Source of the DNA: Synechococcus sp. PCC 7335
GTDB taxonomy: Bacteria > Cyanobacteriota > Cyanobacteriia > Phormidesmidales > Phormidesmidaceae
Direction: 5' to 3'
Length of the DNA: 64,000 nt
NCBI RefSeq assembly: GCF_000155595.1
Contig: NZ_DS989904.1
Coordinates: 3,629,612 to 3,693,611, forward strand
Position 1 is the first letter of the stretch; every line of letters starts with the position of its first letter. The position numbers and the translations under genes are program-made. A model generated the notes under the pieces. That model ran no database searches and was not told the DNA's origin. It saw nothing but the letters and a program-made list of their open reading frames with translations. Below are positions 1 to 13,549 of the stretch, piece after piece.

Positions 1-402
1 TGCTCTTGGATAGCAAGAGCAAAGTGTACACACCACGACGTGATGCACTTGTGGCGTATTTTCAACGACTTGAAGTCGTTTAATTTCTACCGTATCGATA
101 TTCATCTCTTGACAAGCTGCTTTGCCATCTGCTAGCAAACGCTGCTTGAAGTCAGGATCTACCCAGGCACGAGCAACTAAACGCGCTCCCAGCATAGGCG
201 TTACTGAGTCCTGTCGCTCAATCTCGCGTCTGACTTCAGCAGCAGTGAAAAATCCTTTTTGTTCTAAAAGCTTCTGGATGGTTTGAGTCTTTTGAGCCCA
301 GTATGCTTCATTGTCATCAATGGGGTCATGGCTGTGGTCATGTGTACCCAGATCCTCTGAGTCGCTAGGTGATGCCTGGTTATGTTCGTGAAGGTTAGTC
401 AT
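1..402 (-). CDS. Nitrile hydratase alpha subunit, cobalt type (partial, runs off the left edge)
   Basis: The 134 visible residues match the N-terminal part of nitrile hydratase alpha or the homologous thiocyanate hydrolase gamma chain. These enzymes hydrate a nitrile to an amide in the cytoplasm at a low-spin metal held by a Cys claw. The claw VCTLCSC is visible at residues 124-130 (C125, C128, C130). Thr after the first Cys is the cobalt-type signature (iron enzymes have CSLCSC). The first 30 residues are unusually rich in His and Asp. The gene follows the beta subunit after 55 nt on the same strand, and beta-before-alpha order is also usual for cobalt enzymes. The C-terminal half and any activator gene lie outside the window. 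Family assignment is firm; nitrile versus thiocyanate as substrate is not decidable here. Confidence 0.88.
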   Translation of the reverse strand, partial: MTNLHEHNQASPSDSEDLGTHDHSHDPIDDNEAYWAQKTQTIQKLLEQKGFFTAAEVRREIERQDSVTPMLGARLVARAWVDPDFKQRLLADGKAACQEMNIDTVEIKRLQVVENTPQVHHVVVCTLCSCYPRA

Positions 403-457
403 AACGGATAAAATGTACAGTGTCTAAAAGTAGATGCTCTAGAAAAGTGGTGTTTTA

Positions 458-1225
458 CTAGGTTAGTGAAGACAACCAGGACTCGTATATCTCCGCTCTA
501 ACTTTATCTCTAAGACTTTTTTGGGAACAGCGATCGCCCCACACTTCTGTCATCTCAAACTCTACTAAATAAAGCGGAAGACGAACCACCGTTGATCTCA
601 AATGAGCAACATCCTCTGGATTAGAAAACATGTCTTGAAAGCTGACTATTTTGCCACGTTTTCCGAGCAGATAGGCAGGTACTCTGATGTGACCTGGTTT
701 TGGATAAGGCGCAACCTGGACTGAATCACCTGGGCTGTATCTGGGTTTTGGATATGCCTTTTTGTCGATATGGGGTGAGTAGCGGCCTATTGGAAAGTCA
801 TTGTCTAGCAAGTTACTGCCTGACCATATTTTAGTGTGATCGCTTCTAGTCTCGTCCGGCGCAATCTCATCTGGCGTCTGTTGTAGCTCCTCACGGGTAA
901 TAAAACCCATCTCACAAAACACTTTCTCAACAGCGAGTACTCGCCTTTCCCCGTACTCAGGCAAGCGACCCTTTAAAAAGTTAGGAAAGAAGACAGGGTT
1001 CTCTGCTGAGGACTGCTGAGCATCGGACAGTCCATCTACTTCTTCGGCAGCGCGACGGATAGCATCTAAGCTAGGTAAATATCCCTTCGAAATCAGTAGG
1101 TGATGTATGCAGACAATTTGCTTCTCAAAAAAGCTAACCTCCTTTTCAGAGTGTGGAATTTCTGAGCTGTCATTAACATGATGAGGGATATGACGATGGT
1201 AGGCTTTTGGCGGAACTTCTTGCAT
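458..1225 (-). CDS. Nitrile hydratase beta subunit
   Basis: This 255-residue protein pairs with the alpha chain to form nitrile hydratase. The N-terminal helical part (about 30-120) has the FE(K/R)...RRA...E pattern and a GFITREEL segment. The C-terminal SH3-like barrel (about 165-255) contains HIRVPAYLLGKRGKIVSF and YLVEFEMTEVWGD, which correspond to the conserved TPxYxxGKxGxI and LYxVxFxxxELWG blocks. It is somewhat longer than typical beta chains (about 220-230) and lacks the usual MDGIHDLGG start, having a His/Pro-rich leader instead. It lies 70 nt after a substrate-binding lipoprotein gene and 55 nt before alpha, so it is probably in one transcript with the importer. Split alpha/beta thiocyanate hydrolase chains are relatives, but this is a single full-length beta. 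Confidence 0.85.
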   Translation of the reverse strand: MQEVPPKAYHRHIPHHVNDSSEIPHSEKEVSFFEKQIVCIHHLLISKGYLPSLDAIRRAAEEVDGLSDAQQSSAENPVFFPNFLKGRLPEYGERRVLAVEKVFCEMGFITREELQQTPDEIAPDETRSDHTKIWSGSNLLDNDFPIGRYSPHIDKKAYPKPRYSPGDSVQVAPYPKPGHIRVPAYLLGKRGKIVSFQDMFSNPEDVAHLRSTVVRLPLYLVEFEMTEVWGDRCSQKSLRDKVRAEIYESWLSSLT

Positions 1226-1295
1226 AGGCTTCTAAGATCAGCACATACGTTCAAAAAATTAGGTAACTTTCACAGGCTACTCTTTCAGCTGCATC

Positions 1296-2372
1296 CTAAA
1301 TGAGTTCTGACTTATCTAGTACTAGCTCTTTGGCAACCATCTCTTTATCTAGCACCTCTTCATCAACGAAGACATTAATAAATTTTTGATAGGAATCTAA
1401 ATCGGTCTCATCGAGATCGTCAAACCGCTTAAGAAGTGGCTGGGCGACATAAGCCGCTTGCTCAGACTCAAGGGCAGTAAATTCTGAAATAATAGGTCGA
1501 ACGCTGTCAAAATCTTCGTTAGCAATTCTAGTCGCCTCGTCGATCACCTGTACCACTTTTTTGGCTACTTCAGGGCGGTCGGTCAAAAACTTAGAGGTCA
1601 GTACAGCAGCCCCAGAATAGAACGGATCTGAGATAAACATTGAGACAGGATTGGTCATGGCTCGTTTACCTTGATCTGTGGCTTCTGCAATCGACCCAAT
1701 AGGCTCTAGTGAAAGGGTCGCGTCTACAGCGCCAGAAACCACGGAGGGTAGATGCAGTCCAACGGCCATTTGTTCAATCGTGACGTTATTACCGGGCTCT
1801 AGTCCGTTCTGCTTCAGAACATAGGAGAGAATGGTCTCCCACTGAATCCCGGGAATGGTACCTACTTTTTTACCCTCAAGGTCTTTAAACGAGGTAATGG
1901 TTGAATCTGGGATAACGATGAGTCCATCGTTGATTAAGCTACTTTTGATGCCGCCGCCCTGTAAGCCAAATACCTTAAACGTGCCAGGTGTTCTCGCCTC
2001 CGCAAGCACGGCGATACCAGCGGCCGTGCCAGGTGGCCCAAAATCGGCACGCTCCGAGACTAACGAATCAATAATTTGATTGGGATTTTCAAACTTCACA
2101 GACTCAACTTCGATCCCAGCTTGTTCGAACAAACCTTGCTTCAAGGCAACGTAGTAAGCTGTTGTTTGCATAATTGGAAGCCACGAGGCTACCACCTTTT
2201 CTTTCCTGACAATCAGCTCAGGGCTACTGCCACTTTCGGCCGACACATCGCTCGCAGTGTCAGGAGTGGCTGTATTTGATGGATTGCCACCACAAGCTGA
2301 AACCGCACCTGCACCAACCGTGAGCGCTCCATACTTAACAAACTTACGCCGACTCAAAGAGAACTTATCCAT
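1296..2372 (-). CDS. ABC transporter substrate-binding lipoprotein, NMT1/SsuA family
   Basis: This is the periplasmic receptor of a nitrate/sulfonate/taurine/pyrimidine-type importer (358 aa). The N-terminus carries a twin-arginine-like SRRKFVKYG followed by a lipobox ending at C27 (SAC-GG), so it is probably a membrane-anchored lipoprotein. The mature part shows the family pattern: AYYVALKQGLFEQAGIEVE, then SERADFG, DLEGKKVGTIPG and SGAVDATLSLEP. It follows its permease by 4 nt, and its ATPase lies one gene further up. The receptor family binds many small organic N and S compounds. Placement directly before nitrile hydratase suggests a nitrile, amide or related ligand, which is inference only. 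Confidence 0.85.
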   Translation of the reverse strand: MDKFSLSRRKFVKYGALTVGAGAVSACGGNPSNTATPDTASDVSAESGSSPELIVRKEKVVASWLPIMQTTAYYVALKQGLFEQAGIEVESVKFENPNQIIDSLVSERADFGPPGTAAGIAVLAEARTPGTFKVFGLQGGGIKSSLINDGLIVIPDSTITSFKDLEGKKVGTIPGIQWETILSYVLKQNGLEPGNNVTIEQMAVGLHLPSVVSGAVDATLSLEPIGSIAEATDQGKRAMTNPVSMFISDPFYSGAAVLTSKFLTDRPEVAKKVVQVIDEATRIANEDFDSVRPIISEFTALESEQAAYVAQPLLKRFDDLDETDLDSYQKFINVFVDEEVLDKEMVAKELVLDKSELI

Positions 2373-2376
2373 AGAC

Positions 2377-3165
2377 CTATTTTCCTTTCCAATGGATGAA
2401 CTTGTTTTCGGTTAATAAAAAGAACTGGTTTAATCCATAGCCCATGACACCTGTTGCAATAATTGAGGCATACATTCCAGACATGTCAAAAACCTGCTGC
2501 GCGTCAATAATGCGCTGTCCCATACCGTTTGTAGAACCCACAAACATCTCTGCCACAATAATGACAACTAGTGTCAGGGAAATAGCCGTCCGTAACCCAA
2601 TGAAGGTTTGGGGTAGAGTCTCAAAAAAAATGACATCGATAAAAACGCGCCATTTCGGTACGCCCATCACCTTAGCTGCCATAATACGCGTTTTGCGAGT
2701 GTTCATCACTCCATAGGCAACATTAAAAAAGATGACGAGGGCCCCGGCAAAGGCAGCCACGGCAACTTTGGAAAAGTCACCAATGCCAAACACCACCAAG
2801 AACAGTGGAAACATGGCTGTTGCAGGCGTAGATCGAAAAAAGTCGATTAAGAACTCGAAAGATTTATACAGTCGCTCGTTGGCACCTAGCAAAATGCCAA
2901 CAGGAACACCTAAGATAGCAGCAATAGCAAAGGCATAGAGAGTGCGGTAAAGCGTCAACCAAAAGTCAACTAAGAGATCGCCTCCTACGAAGCCATTCCA
3001 AAGCGCTAAAAAAGTTGCGATGGGGCTAGGTAGCAGCACCGGCTTGACTAGTTCTAAGGCTGTGATTATCCACCAGATTACAATAAAAATCAGCGTCCCT
3101 GTATTCGCCGCTAGGACGGGAGAAATCTTTGACCAATAAGGATACGCCTTTTGAAGAGGTTTCAC
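2377..3165 (-). CDS. ABC transporter permease, SsuC/TauC/NrtB type
   Basis: This inner-membrane permease (262 aa) belongs to the BPD_transp_1 fold. It has about six hydrophobic segments and the cytoplasmic EAA loop (KVMGVPKWRVFIDVIFFETLPQTFIGLR), which contacts the ATPase. The start is GTG at 3165, one nucleotide after the TAG of the ATPase gene, giving tight translational coupling. The lipoprotein gene follows after 4 nt. Together the three genes make a complete importer module. Confidence 0.87.
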   Translation of the reverse strand: MKPLQKAYPYWSKISPVLAANTGTLIFIVIWWIITALELVKPVLLPSPIATFLALWNGFVGGDLLVDFWLTLYRTLYAFAIAAILGVPVGILLGANERLYKSFEFLIDFFRSTPATAMFPLFLVVFGIGDFSKVAVAAFAGALVIFFNVAYGVMNTRKTRIMAAKVMGVPKWRVFIDVIFFETLPQTFIGLRTAISLTLVVIIVAEMFVGSTNGMGQRIIDAQQVFDMSGMYASIIATGVMGYGLNQFFLLTENKFIHWKGK

Positions 3166-3166
3166 A

Positions 3167-3973
3167 CTAACCGGCCTCTCGACGAAACACTTCTAAGCTA
3201 TGTGCTTTTGTTTTCACAAAACTTGGATCCGAGAGTGTCTGTAGTGTACGAGGACGCTTAGCTTCAAAGGTAACTCGCTCGGCCAAGCGAGTCGGGCGCT
3301 TAGTCAACAACAAAATATGATCGGCTAGGTAGACGGCTTCTTCTAAGTCGTGAGAGATCATAACGATGGTGACCCCAGTAGTGGCAAATACCGCCTGGAG
3401 CTGGTCGCGAATGGCGAGCGTTGCTTCGTAGTCTAAGGCGGAAAAGGGTTCATCTAAAAAGAGAATATTGGGCCGAGTGGCCAGTGCTCTCATAATTGAA
3501 ACGAGCTGTTGCTGACCGCCTGAGAGTTCGTAAGGATACCGAGATAGATCAAATTGAACGTCAAACTGAGCGATCAGTTCTTCTACTCTTGTCTTTCGCT
3601 GCAATCGGGAAAATCCTGCGCTTAAAAGCGGATACTCGATGTTCTTGATAGCCATAAGCCAAGGAAAGAGCGCATCGCGATAGTTTTGAAACACATAGCC
3701 AATTTTAGTCTGCGATCGCGCTTTCCCTCCAAAGCGTAGCTGGCCTGAATCTATCGGCATCAGCCCAGCAATCATATTAATCAGCGTCGACTTACCGCAC
3801 CCATTTGGACCAAAGATGCAGGTGATTTTTCCGCTGGCAATCTCTAGGTTAAAGTCCTTGTATAGAACCTGACCACCCAGATACTTTGTCAAGCCAGTCA
3901 CTGTAATGTCTAAACCAGAAAACCCGGGCTGTGATTCTTGAAGATAAGCTAAGTGCCGGGCTGACATCACCAT
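3167..3973 (-). CDS. ABC transporter ATP-binding protein, SsuB/TauB type
   Basis: The ATPase subunit (268 aa) of the importer feeding the nitrile hydratase operon. Walker A is GPNGCGKST, the Q-loop is in YVFQNYRDALFPW, the signature is LSGGQQQLV, Walker B is ILFLDEP and the switch His is in MISHDLEEA. It is the first gene of the operon that continues through permease, receptor, nitrile hydratase beta and alpha. A second ATG (MSAR) lies two codons in; either start is possible. Upstream is a 517-nt gap shared with the divergent CDF gene. Confidence 0.87.
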   Translation of the reverse strand: MVMSARHLAYLQESQPGFSGLDITVTGLTKYLGGQVLYKDFNLEIASGKITCIFGPNGCGKSTLINMIAGLMPIDSGQLRFGGKARSQTKIGYVFQNYRDALFPWLMAIKNIEYPLLSAGFSRLQRKTRVEELIAQFDVQFDLSRYPYELSGGQQQLVSIMRALATRPNILFLDEPFSALDYEATLAIRDQLQAVFATTGVTIVMISHDLEEAVYLADHILLLTKRPTRLAERVTFEAKRPRTLQTLSDPSFVKTKAHSLEVFRREAG

Positions 3974-4490
3974 ATTGAGGAAGCTCTAAAGCACTGCGAT
4001 GACATCACCATCTCTATTTGACTCACACTTTTAGGAACTCTCAAACTTCAACTCTTTCAAACAAGCTGTCCAAAGTGAGAATAGTTAATTTTACATGGTC
4101 TCCCTTAGTAAACTGAGAGTACCTATTTTCTTAGAAACAAACAGTTAACTACAATACATTTCACTTGCCGACTAACAGAAAAACCCTAGCTATCTTGCTC
4201 CGATCACTGGAGAGTTCTCTGCGTATGTTGAAACATATCTACAGAAGTAACGATGATATGTTGAATTTTGTCAATTCGCTCCAAGCGTAATCCAAGGGTT
4301 AAGCGACTCAACTCTAGAACACTTCTAAGAAACTCATAAGCCTCCACATCTAGCGAAAGTTCAGCCTTGATCTAGTAATTTTTAATGAACGTAATTCGTG
4401 TTCGATCCGCGACAGTTCAGTGTAGGAACATGTTGAGATAATGAGCTATGCCCTGGAATTCAAGTCGGACATACCCTGTGTTGATCGAAT
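3974..4490. other. Divergent intergenic region between importer operon and CDF transporter
   Basis: This 517-nt AT-rich region should hold the promoters of both the minus-strand importer/nitrile hydratase operon and the plus-strand CDF gene. I see no ORF worth calling. The nearest thing to an NtcA site is GTA-N9-TAC at 4108-4122, one base too long for the consensus. I see no convincing hairpin. Confidence 0.5.
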
Positions 4491-5453
4491 ATGGCACCTA
4501 TGAAGCAACTCTCTATTCCCAAATCTCTTACCCATTCGCATCATCATGTTCATCAGCCTGGAGAAGATACTCATACCCATGGCACAATTGATCCTGCCAT
4601 TGCCACCTCAGAACGGGGGCTTTGGGCCGTGAAAGTGTCACTCATTTGCCTCACCGTAACGGCGATCGCGCAGGCGGGTGTATTCTGGCTGTCGGGTAGC
4701 GTCGCGCTCTTAGCTGACCTGATTCACAATGTAGGTGATGCCATGACTGCCTTACCATTAGGCGTGGCATTCATCCTAGGACGACGTAAGCCAACCAAGC
4801 GATTTGCTTACGGCTATGGACGAGTCGAAGACCTAGCAGGCGTAGCCGTTGTGGGCGTCATTTTGCTGAGTGCCTTGATTACTGCCTATGAATCTATCAA
4901 TCGCTTTTACCATCCCCAGCCCATTCACCATATAGGCGCATTGGCAATGGCTGCTCTCATCGGCTTCGTTGGCAATGAGACTGTCGCCATCTTTCGCACG
5001 CGTGTGGGTCGCGAGATTAATAGCGCAGCGTTAGTTGCTGATGGGCAGCACGCTTTAGCAGACGGTTTAGTCAGCTTAGCTGTACTAGTGAGTGCAATCG
5101 GCGTTTGGGCAGGGTATTCCTGGGCTGATCCGCTAGTTGGTTTGGTGATTACAGGTTTGTTGCTTAAGATTGTGTGGGAATCAGGACAAACTATCTTTAC
5201 TCGCCTGCTCGATGGTGTTGAACCTGAGCTCGTTGACACCCTTCGCCACTTGACTGAGCATGTGACTGATATCAGATCAGTAGAAGCCATTCGAGCTAGA
5301 TGGCTAGGTCATCGGCTTTACGCAGAACTTGATGTAGTTATTGCTGAGAATCTTTCTGTGAAAGAAGGACAGGCGATCGCCGAAGCGGTCAACCTTCAGC
5401 TTCAAGAACATATTCCTTATCTCGAAAACGTTATGGTACGAATAACGTGCTGA
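4491..5453 (+). CDS. Cation diffusion facilitator (CDF) metal efflux transporter
   Basis: A 320-residue member of the CDF family, membrane proton antiporters that move Zn, Co, Ni, Fe or Mn out of the cytoplasm. The N-terminus is His-rich (HSHHHVHQPGEDTHTH, about 16-31), a likely metal-binding tail. About six membrane segments follow, with the expected acidic metal sites in TM2 (LADLIHNVGDAMT) and TM5 (ADGQHALADGLVS). The C-terminal cytoplasmic domain (about 235-320) has the ferredoxin-like pattern. It is transcribed away from the importer operon and toward the second amide-related operon. The HxxxD plus HxxxD pattern is typical of Zn-type CDFs. A role in cobalt balance for nitrile hydratase is possible but is inference from location only. 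Confidence 0.88.
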   Translation: MAPMKQLSIPKSLTHSHHHVHQPGEDTHTHGTIDPAIATSERGLWAVKVSLICLTVTAIAQAGVFWLSGSVALLADLIHNVGDAMTALPLGVAFILGRRKPTKRFAYGYGRVEDLAGVAVVGVILLSALITAYESINRFYHPQPIHHIGALAMAALIGFVGNETVAIFRTRVGREINSAALVADGQHALADGLVSLAVLVSAIGVWAGYSWADPLVGLVITGLLLKIVWESGQTIFTRLLDGVEPELVDTLRHLTEHVTDIRSVEAIRARWLGHRLYAELDVVIAENLSVKEGQAIAEAVNLQLQEHIPYLENVMVRITC

Positions 5454-5495
5454 AAAACTGTTTAATCATAAGACTATTTGATTACGGGCACCTGG

Positions 5496-5936
5496 CTATA
5501 AATGCGCTTTTAATGTTTCCCGAATCCAGGCCGCGTGTTCCGCACGAAAGTCATTACGGCTGATCAAAACATAGTCTTCTACCTCGAACAGTTCTTTCAA
5601 GTCTGTAGACTGCAGCTGATCATAGGGATATTGGTGAGTTCGCCAAGCGGTTAATTCTGTTTTAGGTAGAAGGGCGACGTCGAGCTGCTGTGTACTGATC
5701 AAACTGGCCAGCCGCAGTGGATTACGAGCGCGGGTCACCATAGCTCTAGACTCAGGAATCTCCTCGGCAAGAGTGTGAGCGATCGCCTGTCCAAGATTAT
5801 AGGCTACGGTGTCGTCTCGATTGACCACAATAAACAGGTGCAGCTTTCGATACACTTTCCACTGGGGAAAGGGGGTATGGCCCAGCGGGAATAATGCGAT
5901 CGCACCCATACCCTTCAAATAATCACGACGCTTCAC
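5496..5936 (-). CDS. Small exported protein resembling a truncated solute-binding protein
   Basis: A 146-residue protein starting at GTG 5936, overlapping the stop of the acetamidase gene by four bases (GTGA), so it is translationally coupled. The N-terminus has KRRDYLKGMGAIALFPLG, like a short Tat or Sec signal. The rest (GQAIAHTLAEE, NPLRLASLISTQQLDVALLPKTEL) resembles one lobe of a TAXI/TRAP or NMT1-type periplasmic receptor, but it is less than half the length of such receptors. I do not recognise a named family. It may be a stand-alone ligand-binding domain or a shortened receptor serving the exported hydrolase. Confidence 0.6.
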   Translation of the reverse strand: MKRRDYLKGMGAIALFPLGHTPFPQWKVYRKLHLFIVVNRDDTVAYNLGQAIAHTLAEEIPESRAMVTRARNPLRLASLISTQQLDVALLPKTELTAWRTHQYPYDQLQSTDLKELFEVEDYVLISRNDFRAEHAAWIRETLKAHL

Positions 5937-7249
5937 CGAACGGCTACCTCTGTATTACTCTGGAAATTGTTCTGAGAACCATTCTGGGAGACAGTTGACT
6001 CAGGAAAGATAGTCAACGGAATGATTGCAGACACCAGGTAATTAGGAACGTCTACGAGCTGCCCAATCCGTAAGTCTGCTGCCACGCTAGCTACCACATA
6101 GGCTTGCTCACGAGTCAGTCCATGGTTTTCTACAAGATAATCCACCATATCGATCAGCGCATTTCGTGCGGCCAATGTCAGATCTTCTGATAGGTTACTC
6201 AAAGGCTCTAGCACCTCACTGTTCAGATAGGTATGATAAGGCGGAATTTCACCCGCTTTCTTAATCGGAATCCCTGTCGTTGCATAAAACTTCTCGGGTG
6301 CCAACGCCTTTAGCTGGTCACCACCTTCAAACTGGGGAGATTTGACTTGCGCGCCCAGCCCTTCACGAATCTCGGTCGACACGGTGACTGTTGCACCCAT
6401 CTCAATAGCAGTCCCCGAGACTTCTCCGTCGCCTTGGGCATAGTGTACATCCCCAGCAAATAGCCCACAGCCATCAACAAAGCAGGGAAACAGAATCGTC
6501 GTTCCTACCTGCATTTGCTTCACGTCCATATTTCCGCCATTTTCACGCGGGGGAATCGTCCGAATACAGCGATCTTTGTCAGCTCCTTCGGGGCCACAGA
6601 GATCAGCGGGCAAAGCCCCAGTCGGAAGCGGCGTTAACGAAATCCCACCCACTTCTGCGAGTTCAGCCTCGCGGGTTAGGAAGGTTGCTAACTCAGGATC
6701 GCCAGGCAGTACCCCCATTGACCCAGAGAAAGGGGCAAACGGAATCTCTACTTGAGGGATCTCTTCTGAGACCGCAACGCTGCGATCAAGGCTCCAGTTT
6801 GCAATGTATGGATCGGGAAACAAATCACGCAGAAACCCGAATCCAGGCGCAATCACCGTATAGCCATAGGGGTCGGGCTCGATGTCTTCGAGCGTCACCG
6901 CGAGCACATCCCCTCGCTTAGCGCCTTCAATATAGACTGGTCCGGTCATGGGATGCACTAACGACAAATCAGCGGCAACCACATCTTCTGGCGTGGACGC
7001 TAGGTTAAATGCTCCGTCAAAGGCATCACGGGTGCCCAATACAATCGGTTGGCCCGGCTGAGCAGTAGCCGCAGGCGGAATATCGGGATGGAAGCGGTTG
7101 AAACATGCTGGATCATCCACACAAAACTCACCCGTCCGCTCTATGACTAAGGGTTGGGGAATTTGACTACGAACAGCCGTTGCGCCCACAAACACCACCA
7201 GCAAGGCCAAAGCAAAACCAAGCCAGGGCAGCTTCCAATTCTTCGTCAT
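5933..7249 (-). CDS. Acetamidase/formamidase (FmdA/AmdA) family protein with signal peptide
   Basis: This 438-residue protein belongs to the acetamidase/formamidase family, which hydrolyses short amides to acid plus ammonia. Family features include the DLSLVHPMTGPVYIEGAKRGDVLAVTLEDIEPDPYG-type region, GSMGVLPGDPE, RENGGNMDVKQ, the DVHYAQGDGEVSGTAIE block with its conserved His, Asp and Glu, and the late YLVENHGLTREQAYVVASVAADLRIGQLVD. The start at ATG 7249 follows GGAGCAGG; the codon before it is GTG. Unlike the usual cytoplasmic enzymes it has an N-terminal hydrophobic segment (about 8-25), so it is predicted to be secreted or membrane-anchored. It lies about 200 nt after the cysteine hydrolase gene and overlaps the next gene. 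The true substrate is unknown. Confidence 0.87.
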   Translation of the reverse strand: MTKNWKLPWLGFALALLVVFVGATAVRSQIPQPLVIERTGEFCVDDPACFNRFHPDIPPAATAQPGQPIVLGTRDAFDGAFNLASTPEDVVAADLSLVHPMTGPVYIEGAKRGDVLAVTLEDIEPDPYGYTVIAPGFGFLRDLFPDPYIANWSLDRSVAVSEEIPQVEIPFAPFSGSMGVLPGDPELATFLTREAELAEVGGISLTPLPTGALPADLCGPEGADKDRCIRTIPPRENGGNMDVKQMQVGTTILFPCFVDGCGLFAGDVHYAQGDGEVSGTAIEMGATVTVSTEIREGLGAQVKSPQFEGGDQLKALAPEKFYATTGIPIKKAGEIPPYHTYLNSEVLEPLSNLSEDLTLAARNALIDMVDYLVENHGLTREQAYVVASVAADLRIGQLVDVPNYLVSAIIPLTIFPESTVSQNGSQNNFQSNTEVAVR

Positions 7250-7453
7250 CACACCTGCTCCAATCTCACCGGGAATAACACTAGTTTCTGTTTAATATCA
7301 GAGGAGAGATCGTATCTGTAGCTATCGTTGCTACAGTTTGTGACTCTGTTGAAAAAGTTATTAAAAAGAGAAACCTGCTTGCCTCTACTGAATTCATGGT
7401 TCTACCATCCGGTGCATCTTTCAACAGAACGCTCACCAGAATAGGACGAACAT

Positions 7454-8125
7454 CTAGAAGTCTATCGCCTGCAAAAGCTTCGTAGAGACACTCACCCAGC
7501 CAAAGATTGTCTGAGTCATTTCTACCGATATACGATGAAATTCTGGGTTCAAAGAGGCACAGCAATCTTCCAAAAGTAAGCACTCGTAGCCTAAGTCGTT
7601 GGCTGTACGTAGGGTTGTGTGCACACAGCACTCAGTCGTCACGCCCGTGAGCACTAATTGCCGAATGTTTCGCTGTCGCAAGATTAAATCTAAGTCTGTC
7701 GCAACAAAAGCTCCTTTTCCTGGTTTATCCAACACAATCTCATCCGGTAACGGCTGCAACTCATCGACAAAGTCATGACTTTTTGAGCCTCTCGTCAATA
7801 GCCGACCCATCATCCCTTCGCTGCCAATCTCTGCTTTTTGTCGTTTCGAGCGATCCAGCTTGTGAGGTGGGCAATCACTTAAGTCTGGACGATGACCTTC
7901 TCTCGTATGGATAATCGTTATGGGCGTTTGTCGTAAAGCTGCTAGTAGGGCTTTCAACGGCCGAATAGGTTGTTGGGTTTCCCTCACGTCGAAGCCTTTA
8001 AGATCGGCCCAGCCGCCAGGGGTGCAAAAGTCATTTTGCATGTCAATCACCAGTAGGGCCGTATGTTCTAGGCTAAGGGCAATAGGATAGGGCCGAGCTG
8101 GAATTGTAATGTGGGAAGGAAGCAT
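7454..8125 (-). CDS. Cysteine hydrolase, isochorismatase family
   Basis: A 223-residue cytoplasmic enzyme of the isochorismatase/nicotinamidase fold. The catalytic triad is visible: D28 in LLVIDMQNDF, K134 in LDKPGKGAF and C167 in GVTTECCVHT, with the usual cis-peptide turn before the Cys. Relatives with an intact Cys hydrolyse amides such as N-carbamoylsarcosine, biuret, ureidoacrylate or nicotinamide. It sits 90 nt after the M20 gene and about 200 nt before the acetamidase-like gene on the same strand. That context favours a C-N hydrolase in organic nitrogen use over isochorismate metabolism. Confidence 0.87.
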   Translation of the reverse strand: MLPSHITIPARPYPIALSLEHTALLVIDMQNDFCTPGGWADLKGFDVRETQQPIRPLKALLAALRQTPITIIHTREGHRPDLSDCPPHKLDRSKRQKAEIGSEGMMGRLLTRGSKSHDFVDELQPLPDEIVLDKPGKGAFVATDLDLILRQRNIRQLVLTGVTTECCVHTTLRTANDLGYECLLLEDCCASLNPEFHRISVEMTQTIFGWVSVSTKLLQAIDF

Positions 8126-8215
8126 AATTTCAAAGAAAATACCCCGGCGAAACCAGGGTACTTATAGGTGCGTGATCAAAGGAAATTCTGAGAGATCTTT
8201 TTGAGTGCCTACTAG

Positions 8216-9517
8216 CTAGCTCTCTACTTTGAAAAAGTCCAGTAAAAACAGCGCATAGATTTTTGTGGCAGCAACCACTTTTTCGATGTCAATATACTCA
8301 TTTACTGGAGTCCAACCATCTTCACCCGGGCCAAAGGTAATGGAAGGAATGCCGCTATGGGCAAATCGCAGCGTGTCGCAGTAGGCGTTTTTACGATAGA
8401 GCACCGGCTCTTTTCCGAGAATCTTTTGATAGGCGCGTGAGAGGGCCTGTACATGAGCAGCCTCTTTCGACACCTCCTTATAGGCAGGCACAAAAGTCTC
8501 TCCTTCTACTTGAGTAATGGTGACCTGCACAGTTGGATCTGCTGACTTCATATCGTCAATCACTTTTTGCATATCTGCCATGATGGAGTCGTAGGTCATT
8601 CCAGGGACTAAACCAATTACCCACACCCTGGCTTTGCAAGAGGGGGGCGTGAACTGTCCCTCTCCAACTTTGCCTGCCTGAATACTCACCGGGCAGATGC
8701 TGGGCTGCGTCGGCCCATAAATTTCAGGCGGCTCGTGGGTGAAAGGAGTGTTTCTCAGAGTTTCGATCAGCTGGGCCATGTGGAGAATCGGGTTGATGCC
8801 TTCATCGGGTCGCCAGATATGCGATCGCACGCCTGTCATCTCAATATCCACCACGCATAGCCCTGAATGAGCCAACGCAATCCCAATCCCCCACTCATCC
8901 TCATTCGTCCAAGACGTCGGCTCAGCCGTCACCTCATAGTCAGCTGTTAAACCGTACTCATTCAATAGATGCATCGAGCCAGCTTTGCCATGGCGCTCTT
9001 CATCTACCGTATAGGCGCAAATCAGCTCTCCGTTGATTTTTACCCCAGCTTTGCGCAACAGTTCAACTGCAATCAGCTGGCAAGTCATATTTCCTCGGGT
9101 ATCAGAGGTGCCGCGACCGTAGAGATGGTTGCCATGCAGGGTGGCATTATAAGGATTATGACCAGACATATGCCACTCTCGCGGATCACAAGAGGGATAG
9201 GTGTCTAAGTGATCGTTGAAAATAAGTGAAGGCCCCGGCAGACCATCATTCCAACGTCCAACAACATTAGGTCGTCCCTCAATGGCAGCTACCCACTCTA
9301 CATCCAATCCGTAAGCCTTCAACAGGTTTCCTACCTGCTTAGAGATATCCTCTTCGTGAGCCATTGGAGCTTCTGGATCAATTGAGTTTCCACAGCCTGG
9401 TTGTCCTGTCGGTACGAGGTCTTTAATCAGTTGAATACATTTCTCAGCCGTGATCTCTGAGAGAATCTGTTCTTCTAAAGTATTGATCTCGGCGGGATTA
9501 GAGAGGGTCTGTACCAT
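8216..9517 (-). CDS. M20 family metallo-amidohydrolase (ArgE/DapE-like)
   Basis: A 433-residue di-zinc hydrolase. Metal and catalytic motifs are visible in order: NDHLDTYP (metal His and catalytic Asp), YGRGTSDTRG (bridging Asp), TVDEERHG (general base and metal Glu), AEPTSW (metal ligand), and a late AHSGIPSITFGPG segment. A dimerisation lid lies roughly between residues 205 and 320. Members remove acyl, formyl or carbamoyl groups from amino compounds. It follows an importer permease by 72 nt and precedes the cysteine hydrolase, so it probably acts on the imported compound. No lineage marker identifies it as DapE or ArgE. Confidence 0.85.
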   Translation of the reverse strand: MVQTLSNPAEINTLEEQILSEITAEKCIQLIKDLVPTGQPGCGNSIDPEAPMAHEEDISKQVGNLLKAYGLDVEWVAAIEGRPNVVGRWNDGLPGPSLIFNDHLDTYPSCDPREWHMSGHNPYNATLHGNHLYGRGTSDTRGNMTCQLIAVELLRKAGVKINGELICAYTVDEERHGKAGSMHLLNEYGLTADYEVTAEPTSWTNEDEWGIGIALAHSGLCVVDIEMTGVRSHIWRPDEGINPILHMAQLIETLRNTPFTHEPPEIYGPTQPSICPVSIQAGKVGEGQFTPPSCKARVWVIGLVPGMTYDSIMADMQKVIDDMKSADPTVQVTITQVEGETFVPAYKEVSKEAAHVQALSRAYQKILGKEPVLYRKNAYCDTLRFAHSGIPSITFGPGEDGWTPVNEYIDIEKVVAATKIYALFLLDFFKVES

Positions 9518-9589
9518 ATGGCTTACTCTGGTGAATGTATAAATAAAAGCTGCGTGAGTAGCTGTGCGAATAGAAATAGAAAGAGTGGA

Positions 9590-10432
9590 TTAACCCTGCC
9601 AGTGAACAACGCGAGCAGAGATTATTCTGAGCAAAAAGTCAGACACCACACCAAAAAAGGCAATCATCAAAATGCCAACAAACAGCGCTTCTACGTTAAA
9701 AAAGGTGCTGGCATCTTGAATGATGTAGCCCATGCCTAAATCTCCCGCGAGCAGTTCGGCTGCGACTAAAATGCCGAAGTCTACCGAGAGGGCAACCCGC
9801 ATCCCTGTGAAAATGTATGGCAGCGCGGCAGGAAAAATTACGTAGGCAAAGATGGCGAGATCGTTTGCGCCCAGAGTTCTAGCAGCGAGAATCTTCTCCT
9901 TAGGACAAGCTCGCACCCCCTCCATGGTATTGAGCATAACAATCAGAGCGCCAGCATAGAGAATAATTAAGACTTTGGAAACTTCACCAATACCAAACCA
10001 GAGAATAAACAAGGTGATAAAAGCGAGAGGAGGAATGGGCCGCAATATCTCAGTGGCTACATAAAAGGCGGCACGAATATATTTGTAATAGCCCATCAAT
10101 AGACCTAGGAGTAGCCCAACGATGCTGCCAATGCCAAAGGCTGTGAATACGCGGCGCAAGCTGGCCAGCACGTGGGCGATAAGCGGAGTGCCAGCATAGC
10201 CCTTATTTGCGATCGCAAAAAACTCAGTCACAATTCCCGAAATGCTTGGTAGAAATAGCTCATCAATCCATCCCTGCCGGGTAGTCGTTTCCCACAAAAT
10301 GAGAATTAGAACAGGCATGGCAATGCCTATACAAAACAACAGTCCTTTTTCTCTGAGTGCTTGAGTTTGAAGATCTCTCCCCTTAAAATCAGGCACGTCA
10401 TGAGCGACCTGTTTTGACGCTTTCAACTGCAT
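9590..10432 (-). CDS. ABC transporter permease, SsuC/TauC/ThiX type
   Basis: The membrane subunit (280 aa) of the second importer. A cytoplasmic N-terminus of about 30 residues precedes roughly six membrane helices. The EAA-type loop is at RTLGANDLAIFAYVIFPAALPYIFTGMR. It begins 12 nt after the ATPase gene. It resembles the permease at 2377-3165 only at family level, so the two importers look like separately acquired systems, not a recent duplication. Confidence 0.87.
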   Translation of the reverse strand: MQLKASKQVAHDVPDFKGRDLQTQALREKGLLFCIGIAMPVLILILWETTTRQGWIDELFLPSISGIVTEFFAIANKGYAGTPLIAHVLASLRRVFTAFGIGSIVGLLLGLLMGYYKYIRAAFYVATEILRPIPPLAFITLFILWFGIGEVSKVLIILYAGALIVMLNTMEGVRACPKEKILAARTLGANDLAIFAYVIFPAALPYIFTGMRVALSVDFGILVAAELLAGDLGMGYIIQDASTFFNVEALFVGILMIAFFGVVSDFLLRIISARVVHWQG

Positions 10433-10444
10433 AGAGAGATCTCC

Positions 10445-11269
10445 TTAGCTGATGGCCTTCATCTTTAGATACAGATCCGTTCGATACTGATTAAAAGCAT
10501 CGGAGACTCGGTTCATTGGGGCATAGCGAGGTTCTGGCAGCTGCACAACGGTTTCATCGTAAATACCGCCCAGGTTACGGTCTAGGATGATAATGCGATC
10601 GCTCAAAAACACCGCTTCTTCAATGCTGTGCGTTACAAATAAGATTGCTCCCGCCACCTGCTCATGCAGCCTCAATAGCTCTTCCTGCAAGCCCTCGCGG
10701 GTCTGTACATCCACCGCTGCAAACGGCTCATCCATCAGCAAGATCTCCGGTTGCACTACCATTGATCGCGCTACGGCCACCCGCTGGCGCATTCCTCCTG
10801 AGAGCTGGTAGGGGTACTTACGCTCAGCGCCTCGTAGTCCTACTAGATCAATAATCGTTTTCACCTTTTGCTGCTTTTCTAGCTTTGGCAACGGCTGAAA
10901 CCGAAAGCCAAAGGCAATATTCTGTTCTACTGTCATCCAATCGAACAGTGCATTTCCTTGAAACACAACCCCTCTTTCTTCCGAGGGTCCCCTAACAGGG
11001 TTGCCACCATGCGTTACCAAACCAGCTAGCGGCTTATAAAACCCAGCAATCAGGTTTAATATAGTGGACTTTCCACAGCCTGATGGTCCTAATAGGCTCA
11101 AGAACTCCCCCCGCTGTATACTCAGGGTAAGATCTTGTAATACCAACCGCTTTCGGCTGTAGCCGAACGTCACCCGGTCTAAGCCAATAATCTCTTCTAG
11201 AGACATAGCTTGCTCGGTTGACTCAGTTTGTTGAATATCTGTCAAAGACCTAGAGATCGATCGAGTCAT
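10445..11269 (-). CDS. ABC transporter ATP-binding protein, SsuB/TauB type
   Basis: The ATPase of the second importer (about 274 aa). Walker A is GPSGCGKST, the Q-loop lies in GVVFQGNALFDWM, the signature is LSGGMRQRV, Walker B is ILLMDEP and the switch is VTHSIEEA. I chose ATG 11269, which begins one base after the TGA of the receptor gene. An in-frame TTG five codons earlier would overlap that gene. The coupling supports one transcript from receptor to permease. Confidence 0.87.
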   Translation of the reverse strand: MTRSISRSLTDIQQTESTEQAMSLEEIIGLDRVTFGYSRKRLVLQDLTLSIQRGEFLSLLGPSGCGKSTILNLIAGFYKPLAGLVTHGGNPVRGPSEERGVVFQGNALFDWMTVEQNIAFGFRFQPLPKLEKQQKVKTIIDLVGLRGAERKYPYQLSGGMRQRVAVARSMVVQPEILLMDEPFAAVDVQTREGLQEELLRLHEQVAGAILFVTHSIEEAVFLSDRIIILDRNLGGIYDETVVQLPEPRYAPMNRVSDAFNQYRTDLYLKMKAIS

Positions 11270-11270
11270 A

Positions 11271-12368
11271 TCACTTTGTCTCAAGATATTCAGCGATGTA
11301 GGAAGAGTTGATTAGGGGAGATAGATCTTCTGGTACACTATCCAACCGACCTTGCTCGACAAGGAAAGTCGCGTATTCTTCGTAGGCCTTATAGAGATCT
11401 GTTGACTCGGGTTCGCCGGGCTGCCCAAGCCACTGATCCGAGAGCTGATCTTCTATAGGAATTACCGTTGAACCCTGTCGATCGACCATTGCTCCAAATT
11501 CTTCTGGCGTCAGGTTTAGCCGCTTAGCTTCCCACTGCTGTCCAGCCTTGGTGTCAGCAAGATAGTCTTTTTGGGCCAAGTCCCAGGCTTCCATAAACTT
11601 CTGCATCACCTCCGGATTTTCTTCCGCAAATTCCTTCCGCACTCCCCATAGTGCCACCGCATAAGCGCCAACTGACTTAGCCGTAGCGATATCTGTACCA
11701 CCTAGCTCATTGAGCTTTCCAGCAGCGGGTTCCCAAGTCCAAGCGGCGTCAATTTGCTTAGCCGAGAAGGCCGCCGCCATTTCTGACGGCTTTAAGTTCA
11801 CAAGCGTAACATCATCTTGAGAAATACCTGCTTGATCGAGCGCTGCCAAGAGAGAATGGTGCCCGGAGGTACCAATGGTAACCCCTATAGTTTTACCGCT
11901 GAGTGCCTTCATATCAGGGATTGACTCGCTAGCAATCAAGCGCTCTGCGGTTAGGGGAGCGTGATCTAACAGAACAACTTCAAGATCCACACCTGTAGCG
12001 AATGCCGTCAATGAAGGAAAAGGAAAGAACCAAGTAATATCTACCTCTCCCGCAGCAAGCGCGGGGACCATCGCGCCACCCGAGGAATAAGGGCTCATCT
12101 CGACATCCAGACCAACCTCTTCAAAGTAGCCTTCTTCGGCAGCGACCATCGTAATATTGTTGATGTCTCCGGTTTGAAAGCCCACTTTGACCTTTGGCAT
12201 ATCGCTGGAAGGCGCTGCGGCAACTTCACCATCGGAAGCAGCTTCTGTCTCAGTAGCCGTGTCCATATTTTGTGAGCAGCCGATTGTTAATACTAATGAA
12301 CAAACAGCCAATCCAGTAGTCGCTGAGAGAAACCTACGTCGATTGAGAAAACGCCTGATCTGTTGCAT
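11271..12368 (-). CDS. ABC transporter substrate-binding lipoprotein, TauA/SsuA/ThiY-like
   Basis: The receptor (365 aa) of the second importer and first gene of the operon. The N-terminus has a Tat-like RRRFLSAT, a hydrophobic stretch and a lipobox ending at C31 (TIGC-SQ). The mature part shows the NMT1-like pattern KVGFQTGDINNITMVAAEEGYFEEVGLDVE, AAGEVDITWFFPF, LSGKTIGVTIGTSG and SAKQIDAAWTWEP. The C-terminal region is longer than in the receptor at 1296-2372. A GGAG Shine-Dalgarno lies just before ATG 12368. Ligands in this family include taurine, sulfonates, nitrate and pyrimidine precursors. The hydrolases downstream point to an amide- or ureido-type compound. Confidence 0.85.
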   Translation of the reverse strand: MQQIRRFLNRRRFLSATTGLAVCSLVLTIGCSQNMDTATETEAASDGEVAAAPSSDMPKVKVGFQTGDINNITMVAAEEGYFEEVGLDVEMSPYSSGGAMVPALAAGEVDITWFFPFPSLTAFATGVDLEVVLLDHAPLTAERLIASESIPDMKALSGKTIGVTIGTSGHHSLLAALDQAGISQDDVTLVNLKPSEMAAAFSAKQIDAAWTWEPAAGKLNELGGTDIATAKSVGAYAVALWGVRKEFAEENPEVMQKFMEAWDLAQKDYLADTKAGQQWEAKRLNLTPEEFGAMVDRQGSTVIPIEDQLSDQWLGQPGEPESTDLYKAYEEYATFLVEQGRLDSVPEDLSPLINSSYIAEYLETK

Positions 12369-12820: not shown

Positions 12821-13549
12821 CTAAGACTGCAACCCTAGAACGAAGAGTCGAATGCCGACAAGGATCAAAATAACTAGAACAACTCTTCTAAATACCAGCG
12901 GGTTAAAGAACCTGGACAGGATTATTCCGGAGAATAATCCTATGATCATGCTAGGTATGGCAATCATATACTGTTGAAACACTGTCTCAGTCAAGCGGTT
13001 TTGAACAATATGCCCAAGTACGACGAAGACAGCATTTCCCCAAAAAAAGACACTAAGATTGCTCTTGAATTTTTCTTGTCCCCATCGCTGACTGTTGCCG
13101 TAAAGGATAATAGGTGGTCCAGGTATGTTGTAGCTGCTACCTAACGCTCCACACAAGAATCCTGTGCCATACATCCATCGCTGCGACTGTAGTATAGGCA
13201 TTGCCGGGTCAAACAAAGCATAGATGGCATAGACCACAATCATTAGCCCTAGCGCCAAGAGCATCCAATTACCTGGAATGAAACGCAGCATCACGAAGCC
13301 GAGGGGAATTCCGAGGATAGATCCTATCCACAGCTTAGCGACTAACCCCCAATCGAAAGAGCGTCGGTAATAAAAACACAGCAGCGTATCGATAGTCAGT
13401 CCTAGAATAGCGACTAACGGAGCTGCAACATAGATACTAGTTAGTCCAGATAGCACAGGCATAATGATCAGCGCTGCGCCAAAGCCAGAAACCCCTCGGA
13501 TGAAGGAAGCGACACCCACTGTCAGAATAATAATAGCTTCAGTGGTCAT
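12821..13549 (-). CDS. Sulfite exporter TauE/SafE (TSUP) family membrane protein
   Basis: A 242-residue polytopic protein with about eight hydrophobic segments. The opening FIRGVSGFGAALIIMPVL and the later FLCGALGSSYNIPGPPIILY carry the duplicated G-x-G-G/A-rich motif of TSUP transporters. The family moves small anions such as sulfite, sulfoacetate or organic acids across the inner membrane. It lies 21 nt downstream of the DUF3370 gene and 452 nt upstream of the importer operon. A link to sulfonate use is suggested by TauE and TauABC associations elsewhere but is not shown here. Confidence 0.85.
   Translation of the reverse strand: MTTEAIIILTVGVASFIRGVSGFGAALIIMPVLSGLTSIYVAAPLVAILGLTIDTLLCFYYRRSFDWGLVAKLWIGSILGIPLGFVMLRFIPGNWMLLALGLMIVVYAIYALFDPAMPILQSQRWMYGTGFLCGALGSSYNIPGPPIILYGNSQRWGQEKFKSNLSVFFWGNAVFVVLGHIVQNRLTETVFQQYMIAIPSMIIGLFSGIILSRFFNPLVFRRVVLVILILVGIRLFVLGLQS

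Follow-up and report, generated by a model that had tools for sequence, protein, structure and literature searches.

Three separately conserved gene modules on a putative organic-nitrogen island of Synechococcus sp. PCC 7335

The window examined here, a stretch of 64,000 nucleotides from Synechococcus sp. PCC 7335 (G000:C1:3629612-3693611 in a 5.97-Mb cyanobacterial genome), opens with two ATP-binding cassette (ABC) importers, a nitrile hydratase (NHase)-family enzyme and several further predicted C-N hydrolases. A preliminary description had joined these genes into a candidate two-operon pathway, in which a first importer brings in nitriles, the NHase converts them to amides, and a second operon, consisting of an M20 hydrolase, a cysteine hydrolase, an acetamidase-family protein and its own importer, hydrolyzes the amides. 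We compared the region with 65 genomes of the window's own cyanobacterial family (some counts come from a 35-genome set), and the gene set reads best, on sequence comparison, as three separately conserved modules, termed A, B and C, rather than as one two-operon pathway. The features are as follows, with flank coordinates labelled L002.

1-402, minus strand: alpha subunit of the NHase family, t1 type, truncated at the window edge (PF02979, 4.8e-36); the full 229-residue reading frame, L002:18325-19014, extends 287 bp leftward
458-1225, minus strand: NHase-family beta subunit with a divergent N-terminus (PF02211, 2.9e-19)
1296-2372, minus strand: SBP1, a Tat-type lipoprotein of the NMT1/SsuA family (PF09084, 2.7e-20)
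2377-3165, minus strand: PERM1, ABC permease of module A, kept with SBP1 in relatives (PF00528, 3e-18)
3167-3973, minus strand: ATP1, ABC ATPase of module A, kept with SBP1 in relatives (PF00005, 4.9e-31)
4491-5453, plus strand: CDF cation-efflux protein, divergent, between the modules (PF01545, 9.5e-42)
5496-5936, minus strand: 146-residue protein with an N-terminal RR motif, overlapping the FmdA stop (no match in the family search)
5933-7252, minus strand: FmdA/AmdA acetamidase/formamidase-family protein with an N-terminal signal peptide (PF03069, 4.1e-88)
7454-8125, minus strand: CysH, isochorismatase-like cysteine hydrolase (NF050097, 259 bits, cut-off 370)
8216-9517, minus strand: M20 metallohydrolase (PF01546, 8.5e-24)
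9590-10432, minus strand: PERM2, ABC permease of module C (same-position orthologues at 78-85% identity in module-C loci)
10445-11284, minus strand: ATP2, ABC ATPase of module C (orthologues in module-C loci)
11271-12368, minus strand: SBP2, taurine/SsuA-type substrate-binding lipoprotein (TIGR01728, 164.7 bits, cut-off 163.5)
L002:11414-12865, left of the window: allophanate-hydrolase-type amidase (TIGR02713, 525.6 bits)
L002:14830-17614, left of the window: third NitT/TauT importer (SBP3)

Module A (1-3973, minus strand) comprises a NitT/TauT-type importer and a cobalt-type NHase-family enzyme, module B (5496-7252, minus strand) an exported acetamidase-family protein and a predicted single-lobe binding protein, and module C (7454-12368, minus strand) an importer together with the M20 and cysteine hydrolases. 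Intergenic spacing in the NHase set is 1-70 bp; from SBP2 through CysH it runs from an overlap up to 90 bp, and CysH and FmdA are separated by 201 bp. The genes named in the preliminary description are all present and intact on the minus strand, the edge-cut NHase alpha being complete in the flank, and the linkage of an importer to C-N hydrolases that it had noted in each set is kept in relatives. The amidase and the third importer sit 1-7.2 kb left of the window edge, which had hidden part of the gene set. Orthologues in relatives are 75-85% identical for most proteins, about 50-57% for NHase beta and 58-73% for the amidase, and the recurrence of these gene sets is far beyond chance. A promoter and terminator scan returned fewer hits than shuffled sequences did.

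The M20 protein of module C was found in 10 of the 65 family genomes; in an evenly drawn sample of the phylum, all 318 other genomes lacked it. The order SBP2-ATP2-PERM2-M20-CysH is conserved in the loci read, mostly at 78-85% identity; an Adonisia locus retains M20-CysH only, and a Nodosilinea locus without CysH carries both importers, M20 and the amidase in a row. In seven genomes (G325, G337, G347, G348, G339, G344 and G365) module C is neighbored by the amidase, either divergent from SBP2 or directly downstream, and in the 35-genome set the amidase accompanies M20 in 7/7 M20-positive versus 1/28 M20-negative genomes (p=1e-6). A scan of GTDB genomes yielded 52 loci, nine of them cyanobacterial and the remainder almost all from Alpha- and Betaproteobacteria. 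Most combine M20, importer and amidase, several place SBP3-type importers (61-71% identity) near the amidase, and a Methylobacterium plasmid carries an annotated operon M20-SBP-ATPase-permease-'allophanate hydrolase'. Given the conserved amidase partner and the recurrent M20/importer/amidase core, the cleavage steps of module C are probably self-contained. FmdA was found in none of the module-C loci read in relatives, which rules it out as a member of the M20 operon. The second operon proposed in the preliminary description therefore retains its M20 hydrolase, cysteine hydrolase and importer but loses the acetamidase, which also bears a signal peptide.

FmdA instead belongs to a unit of its own. 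Orthologues 82-90% identical occur in G343, G344, G347, G331 and G327, with the 146-residue gene after FmdA (split over two contigs in G327), and in G344 a CDF gene also follows the pair (L094). No A or C gene lies beside the pair in those five genomes within the available sequence, in which some contigs are short. The signal peptide of FmdA and the RR motif of the 146-residue protein were read by eye from the sequence. AlphaFold modeled the latter with a pLDDT of 81; the PDB structures closest to it are those of binding proteins (TAXI-like, phosphate), and the predicted fold corresponds to a single lobe of a periplasmic binding protein of type II. FmdA resembles the FmdA/AmdA formamidases and acetamidases in being a full-length PF03069 protein, but differs from them in its signal peptide, its score of 202.9 bits against NF045496 (cut-off 500) and its pairing with a single-lobe binding protein. 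As an exported protein, it would be poorly placed to receive the product of a cytoplasmic NHase.

Next, we evaluated whether modules A and C travel together. Among the 65 family genomes, 10 carry M20, 8 carry the t1 NHase and 2 carry both, against an expectation of 1.2 (p=0.36), and the co-occurrence of M20 with any NHase is likewise at chance level; 8/10 M20 genomes lack t1, and 6/8 t1 genomes lack M20. The pathway of the preliminary description finds some encouragement in Leptothoe kymatousa (G365), in which the two operons also lie adjacent and co-directional, in t2 NHases divergently paired with a CysH-importer operon, so that NHase plus cysteine hydrolase recurs, and in a formamidase that follows the t1 NHase in G375. 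Nevertheless, we consider it quite unlikely. Its passage from nitrile to amide as successive steps across operons is unsupported because module C has its own amidase, the acetamidase, a member of neither operon elsewhere, carries a signal peptide, and the overall frequency of co-occurrence is that of chance; an arginine at the substrate-pocket position of the t1 enzyme, described below, also speaks against it. Within that description, the two-step pathway has the least support, while the clustering tendency is borne out: NHase-family, cysteine-hydrolase and NitT/TauT-importer modules group repeatedly in this cyanobacterial family.

The residue signatures of module C set its enzymes apart from the named families. 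The M20 protein keeps H103, D105, D139, E173, E174 and E199 in 53/53 sequences, and this subfamily is without the usual last metal-ligand histidine in 53/53, with a GPGEDGW motif instead. The amidase passes TIGR02713 (525.6 versus a cut-off of 511.05, model positions 2-416 of 563) and reads LLF before GPWVAER in the window genome and four orthologues, where solved enzymes read LLY; we take this tyrosine to be a substrate-binding residue of allophanate hydrolase. CysH keeps the catalytic Asp, Lys and Cys (IDMQ, DKPGKG, TTECCV), and all six module-C proteins compared have a three-residue deletion over the specificity Gln (QGG loop). This Gln sets biuret/triuret specificity in TrtA (Q202) and at the equivalent position of BiuH (PMC7948467). 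Elsewhere in the window genome, two proteins exceed the NF050097 cut-off of 370 (412.6 and 410.8 bits); one forms a tandem pair with a third paralogue next to a transporter set. A role of CysH as a biuret hydrolase is ruled out by the missing Gln loop and the presence of these true BiuH paralogues elsewhere in the genome. The likeness to the biuret/triuret pathway (BiuH, TrtA, AtzF) consists in a CysH about 50% identical to BiuH-type enzymes and an amidase that passes the allophanate hydrolase model, whereas the M20 protein lies outside the known pathway. The biuret-amidohydrolase-type genes of this genome, including the two above the NF050097 cut-off, lie outside the window near transporter-type genes, at L022:8767-15247 and L023:3927-10471.

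Two further alternatives were weighed. The nearest PDB entry to SBP2 is taurine-binding TauA (1.8e-29), so that the importers might carry taurine-like sulfonates, with N-acyl or N-carbamoyl sulfonates as substrates of the hydrolases, in organosulfur metabolism. Genes of a sulfite exporter-like family (TSUP) and an AprA-like flavoprotein/4Fe-4S/HEAT cluster near some M20 loci would fit such a role, although both linkages hold in a minority of loci, the modules contain no desulfonating enzyme, the amidase scores above the cut-off of the allophanate hydrolase model, and SBP2 scores 155 bits against the taurine model TIGR01729 (cut-off 304). We regard this explanation as unlikely; taurine uptake itself, below the model cut-offs, is a weak candidate. 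Still more improbable, and in our judgment far-fetched, is that module C resembles thiamine salvage of the ThiXYZ/YlmB type, in which an NMT1/THI5-type importer would serve an M20 enzyme that deformylates an N-acyl aminopyrimidine. SBP1 does belong to the NMT1/THI5-like family and M20 to the ArgE/DapE superfamily, but SBP2 resembles TauA more than THI5, the partner kept with the module is an amidase of the allophanate-hydrolase type, and no TenA or thiamine gene was recognized in the loci read, among which no systematic search was made.

Several other genes recur around these loci. A TSUP/TauE-SafE-like membrane protein is encoded at 12821-13549, upstream of SBP2, with weakly similar genes near M20 in a few loci. 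The AprA-like flavoprotein, 4Fe-4S and HEAT-repeat proteins lie near the M20 operon in cyanobacteria and proteobacteria (L108, L109, L114, L044, L123, L150), and the same cluster lies near an SBP1-C-N-hydrolase operon in L172, with an Mrp-type ATPase added in cyanobacteria. In most of the alphaproteobacterial loci (L118-L158), the M20 operon has a Crp/Fnr-type regulator gene as its neighbor, which suggests redox or oxygen control there.

In module A, the importer lies directly upstream of the t1 NHase in five of its eight family genomes (the window genome, G320, G331, G367 and G364). The order ATP1-PERM1-SBP1-NHase beta-alpha is kept in G320, G331 and G367 and partly in G364, and SBP1 and t1 are associated across the family genomes (p=7e-4). 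At five loci (G371, G372, two in G380, and G326) a tandem C-N hydrolase (PF00795 twice, CFD motif) directly follows the SBP1 importer, and four of the five lie in or near NHase clusters; its presence in place of t1 suggests that the SBP1 cargo is attacked at a C-N bond. This two-domain protein of about 550 residues was located at L168:13980-15641, L169:8372-10033, L171:11289-12950 and L172:10891-12525. In G375, the formamidase AmiF (571 bits, cut-off 406; L159:2939-3967) lies 59 bp downstream of the t1 NHase. The window genome has an AmiF copy at L022:716-1747; AmiF is placed near 3.3587 Mb of G000:C1.

The enzyme itself combines features of two relatives. Its alpha subunit contains the metal motif C-x-L-C-S-C as CTLCSC, confirming the cobalt type given in the preliminary description. 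The full alpha protein scores 237.8 bits against TIGR01323 (nitrile alpha, cut-off 249.85) and 202 bits against TIGR03887 (thiocyanate gamma, cut-off 291.45), and the beta protein, a single 255-residue chain, reaches 89.1 bits against an NCBIfam cut-off of 152.2. Beta RR (R57/R58) and GHIR (R181) are invariant across the eight t1 orthologues; NHases have two beta arginines in contact with the oxidized cysteines; R181 was matched to one of them by alignment, and R57/58 would be the equivalent of its partner by inference. An Arg follows CTLCSCYP in 8/8 t1 enzymes and in 5/5 out-of-family enzymes with separate SH3-like beta genes (G014, G312, Planktothrix, a Microvirga plasmid and a Rhizobium plasmid), and Trp occupies this position in t2 and t3 enzymes of the same family and in G005. 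By motif spacing, we take this Arg to be gamma-Arg136 of thiocyanate hydrolase, presumably one of two arginines governing its substrate choice. PDB chain 3vyh_A reads CYPR and the related 4ob1_A reads CYPW; we assume 3vyg and 3vyh to be swap mutants. A literature search on this Arg in thiocyanate hydrolase found no paper, most subscription papers lying outside its coverage.

These signatures bear on the possibility that module A is an ordinary cobalt NHase for neutral nitriles (or cyanide), independent of C, with the amide finished by formamidase or amidases encoded elsewhere. The higher score with TIGR01323 than with TIGR03887 favors it, as do AmiF next to t1 in G375 and the tandem C-N hydrolase in other SBP1 operons, and t1 shares with cobalt NHases (3qxe, 1ire) the two subunits, the cobalt motif, the beta-then-alpha order and an alpha about 50% identical to other NHases. 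It is unlike them in having Arg for Trp after the motif, a divergent beta N-terminus, a dedicated importer and no activator match in its own genome (a single probe). Both curated cut-offs are missed, and small neutral nitriles would hardly need an importer of a mostly anion-carrying family. We hold this alternative to be doubtful, though less so than the other rivals.

Comparison with the scnABC thiocyanate hydrolase of Thiobacillus thioparus shows the same protein family, the cobalt CTLCSC motif, a neighboring NitT/TauT ABC importer and, as we take scnABC to have it, Arg after CTLCSCYP. The t1 enzyme differs in that beta is one fused chain where scnABC has three separate subunits, importer, beta and alpha form one operon, TIGR03887 is below its cut-off and no sulfur-oxidation genes adjoin. 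In Thiobacillus, the scnABC genes are followed by the NitT/TauT importer (PMC5328954). Because beta is fused and TIGR03887 is missed, t1 is best described from its sequence as a thiocyanate-hydrolase-like enzyme, and we do not call it a thiocyanate hydrolase.

The arrangement of these modules varies among relatives. In Leptothoe kymatousa, the order is amidase, SBP2-ATP2-PERM2-M20-CysH, an Lrp-type regulator, t1 beta-alpha, a 320-residue PvdO/EgtB-like protein, CobW, a t3 NHase and urease genes, the last directly past the NHase cluster (L162:130-5230). In G331, a t2 NHase, accompanied by a separate CysH and importer, fills the slot ahead of the Lrp-type regulator. By pairwise identity, the window genome and Leptothoe do not fall together. 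The pattern reads best as an island on which equivalent import-plus-hydrolysis modules appear to be exchanged, and common regulation or transfer may account for the A-C linkage no less than a shared substrate. A recurrent supercluster was also observed in family genomes (L062, L063-L064, L021, L066-L069, L159, L168), with a t2 NHase divergent from a CysH-NitT/TauT importer set, an Lrp-type regulator, CobW (G3E GTPase), a t3 NHase and accessory genes; its CysH reads QSEGG where BiuH reads KMQGG. The literature searched, in which most subscription papers were outside coverage, contained no description of an NHase, ABC transporter and amidase arrangement in a cyanobacterium, and no isochorismatase-type hydrolase as an NHase partner was found in it. 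The one paper there that discusses both NHase and biuret hydrolase is a survey of nitrifiers, which treats them as separate genes (PMC12625717).

Together, these data favor, at a probability of roughly 0.6, a mosaic island of independent nitrogen-acquisition modules. The genes present, the linkage kept within each module, the co-occurrence counts and the residue signatures are shown by the comparison, and from them we infer the substrates, the direction of the chemistry and the physiological role. The NitT/TauT-type importer of module A would bring in a small polar, probably anionic, cyano compound, whose C-N triple bond would be hydrolyzed by the two-subunit cobalt NHase/thiocyanate hydrolase-family enzyme, with ammonia set free directly if the enzyme is of the thiocyanate type, or by way of an amide if it is of the nitrile type. 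Module C, which includes the amidase at L002:11414-12865 and, in a number of genomes, an additional importer, would import a ureido or acyl-amide compound, to be cleaved by M20; the amidase, joined in most cyanobacteria by CysH, would complete C-N hydrolysis to ammonia. Module B would be an exported amidase unit sitting by happenstance between A and C. Our preference is thus for a small polar cyano compound as the substrate of A and for a compound of the ureido or acyl-amide kind as that of C; thiocyanate and ureido compounds, given as alternatives in the preliminary description, are what the evidence now tends to favor. A more specific version, which we think less likely than not, is that A is a two-subunit thiocyanate or cyano-anion hydrolase with its importer, using thiocyanate as a nitrogen source, and C a new M20/cysteine-hydrolase/amidase pathway for a natural ureide, both on a shuffled organic-nitrogen island of one family.

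Several observations weigh against this account. Both double-positive genomes have A and C side by side on one strand, an arrangement poorly explained by chance (about 1e-3 each). The replacement of t1 by a nitrilase-superfamily protein is easier to reconcile with a nitrile or amide than with thiocyanate, and AmiF after t1 in G375 fits an amide product. Finally, t1 departs from thiocyanate hydrolase not only in its one-chain beta and low TIGR03887 score but also in an additional residue that follows the motif (GYHPPSW).

Photosynthetic bacteria are regarded as users of nitrate, ammonium, urea and N2, and if one cyanobacterial family has sets dedicated to importing and hydrolyzing cyano and ureido compounds, nitrogen sources that are seldom considered would come into view. 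The modules also offer a clean test of one residue (Arg/Trp) as a predictor of thiocyanate versus nitrile use in the NHase family, and they bring to light an orphan module of M20 and amidase whose conservation extends from cyanobacteria as far as Bradyrhizobium and Methylobacterium.

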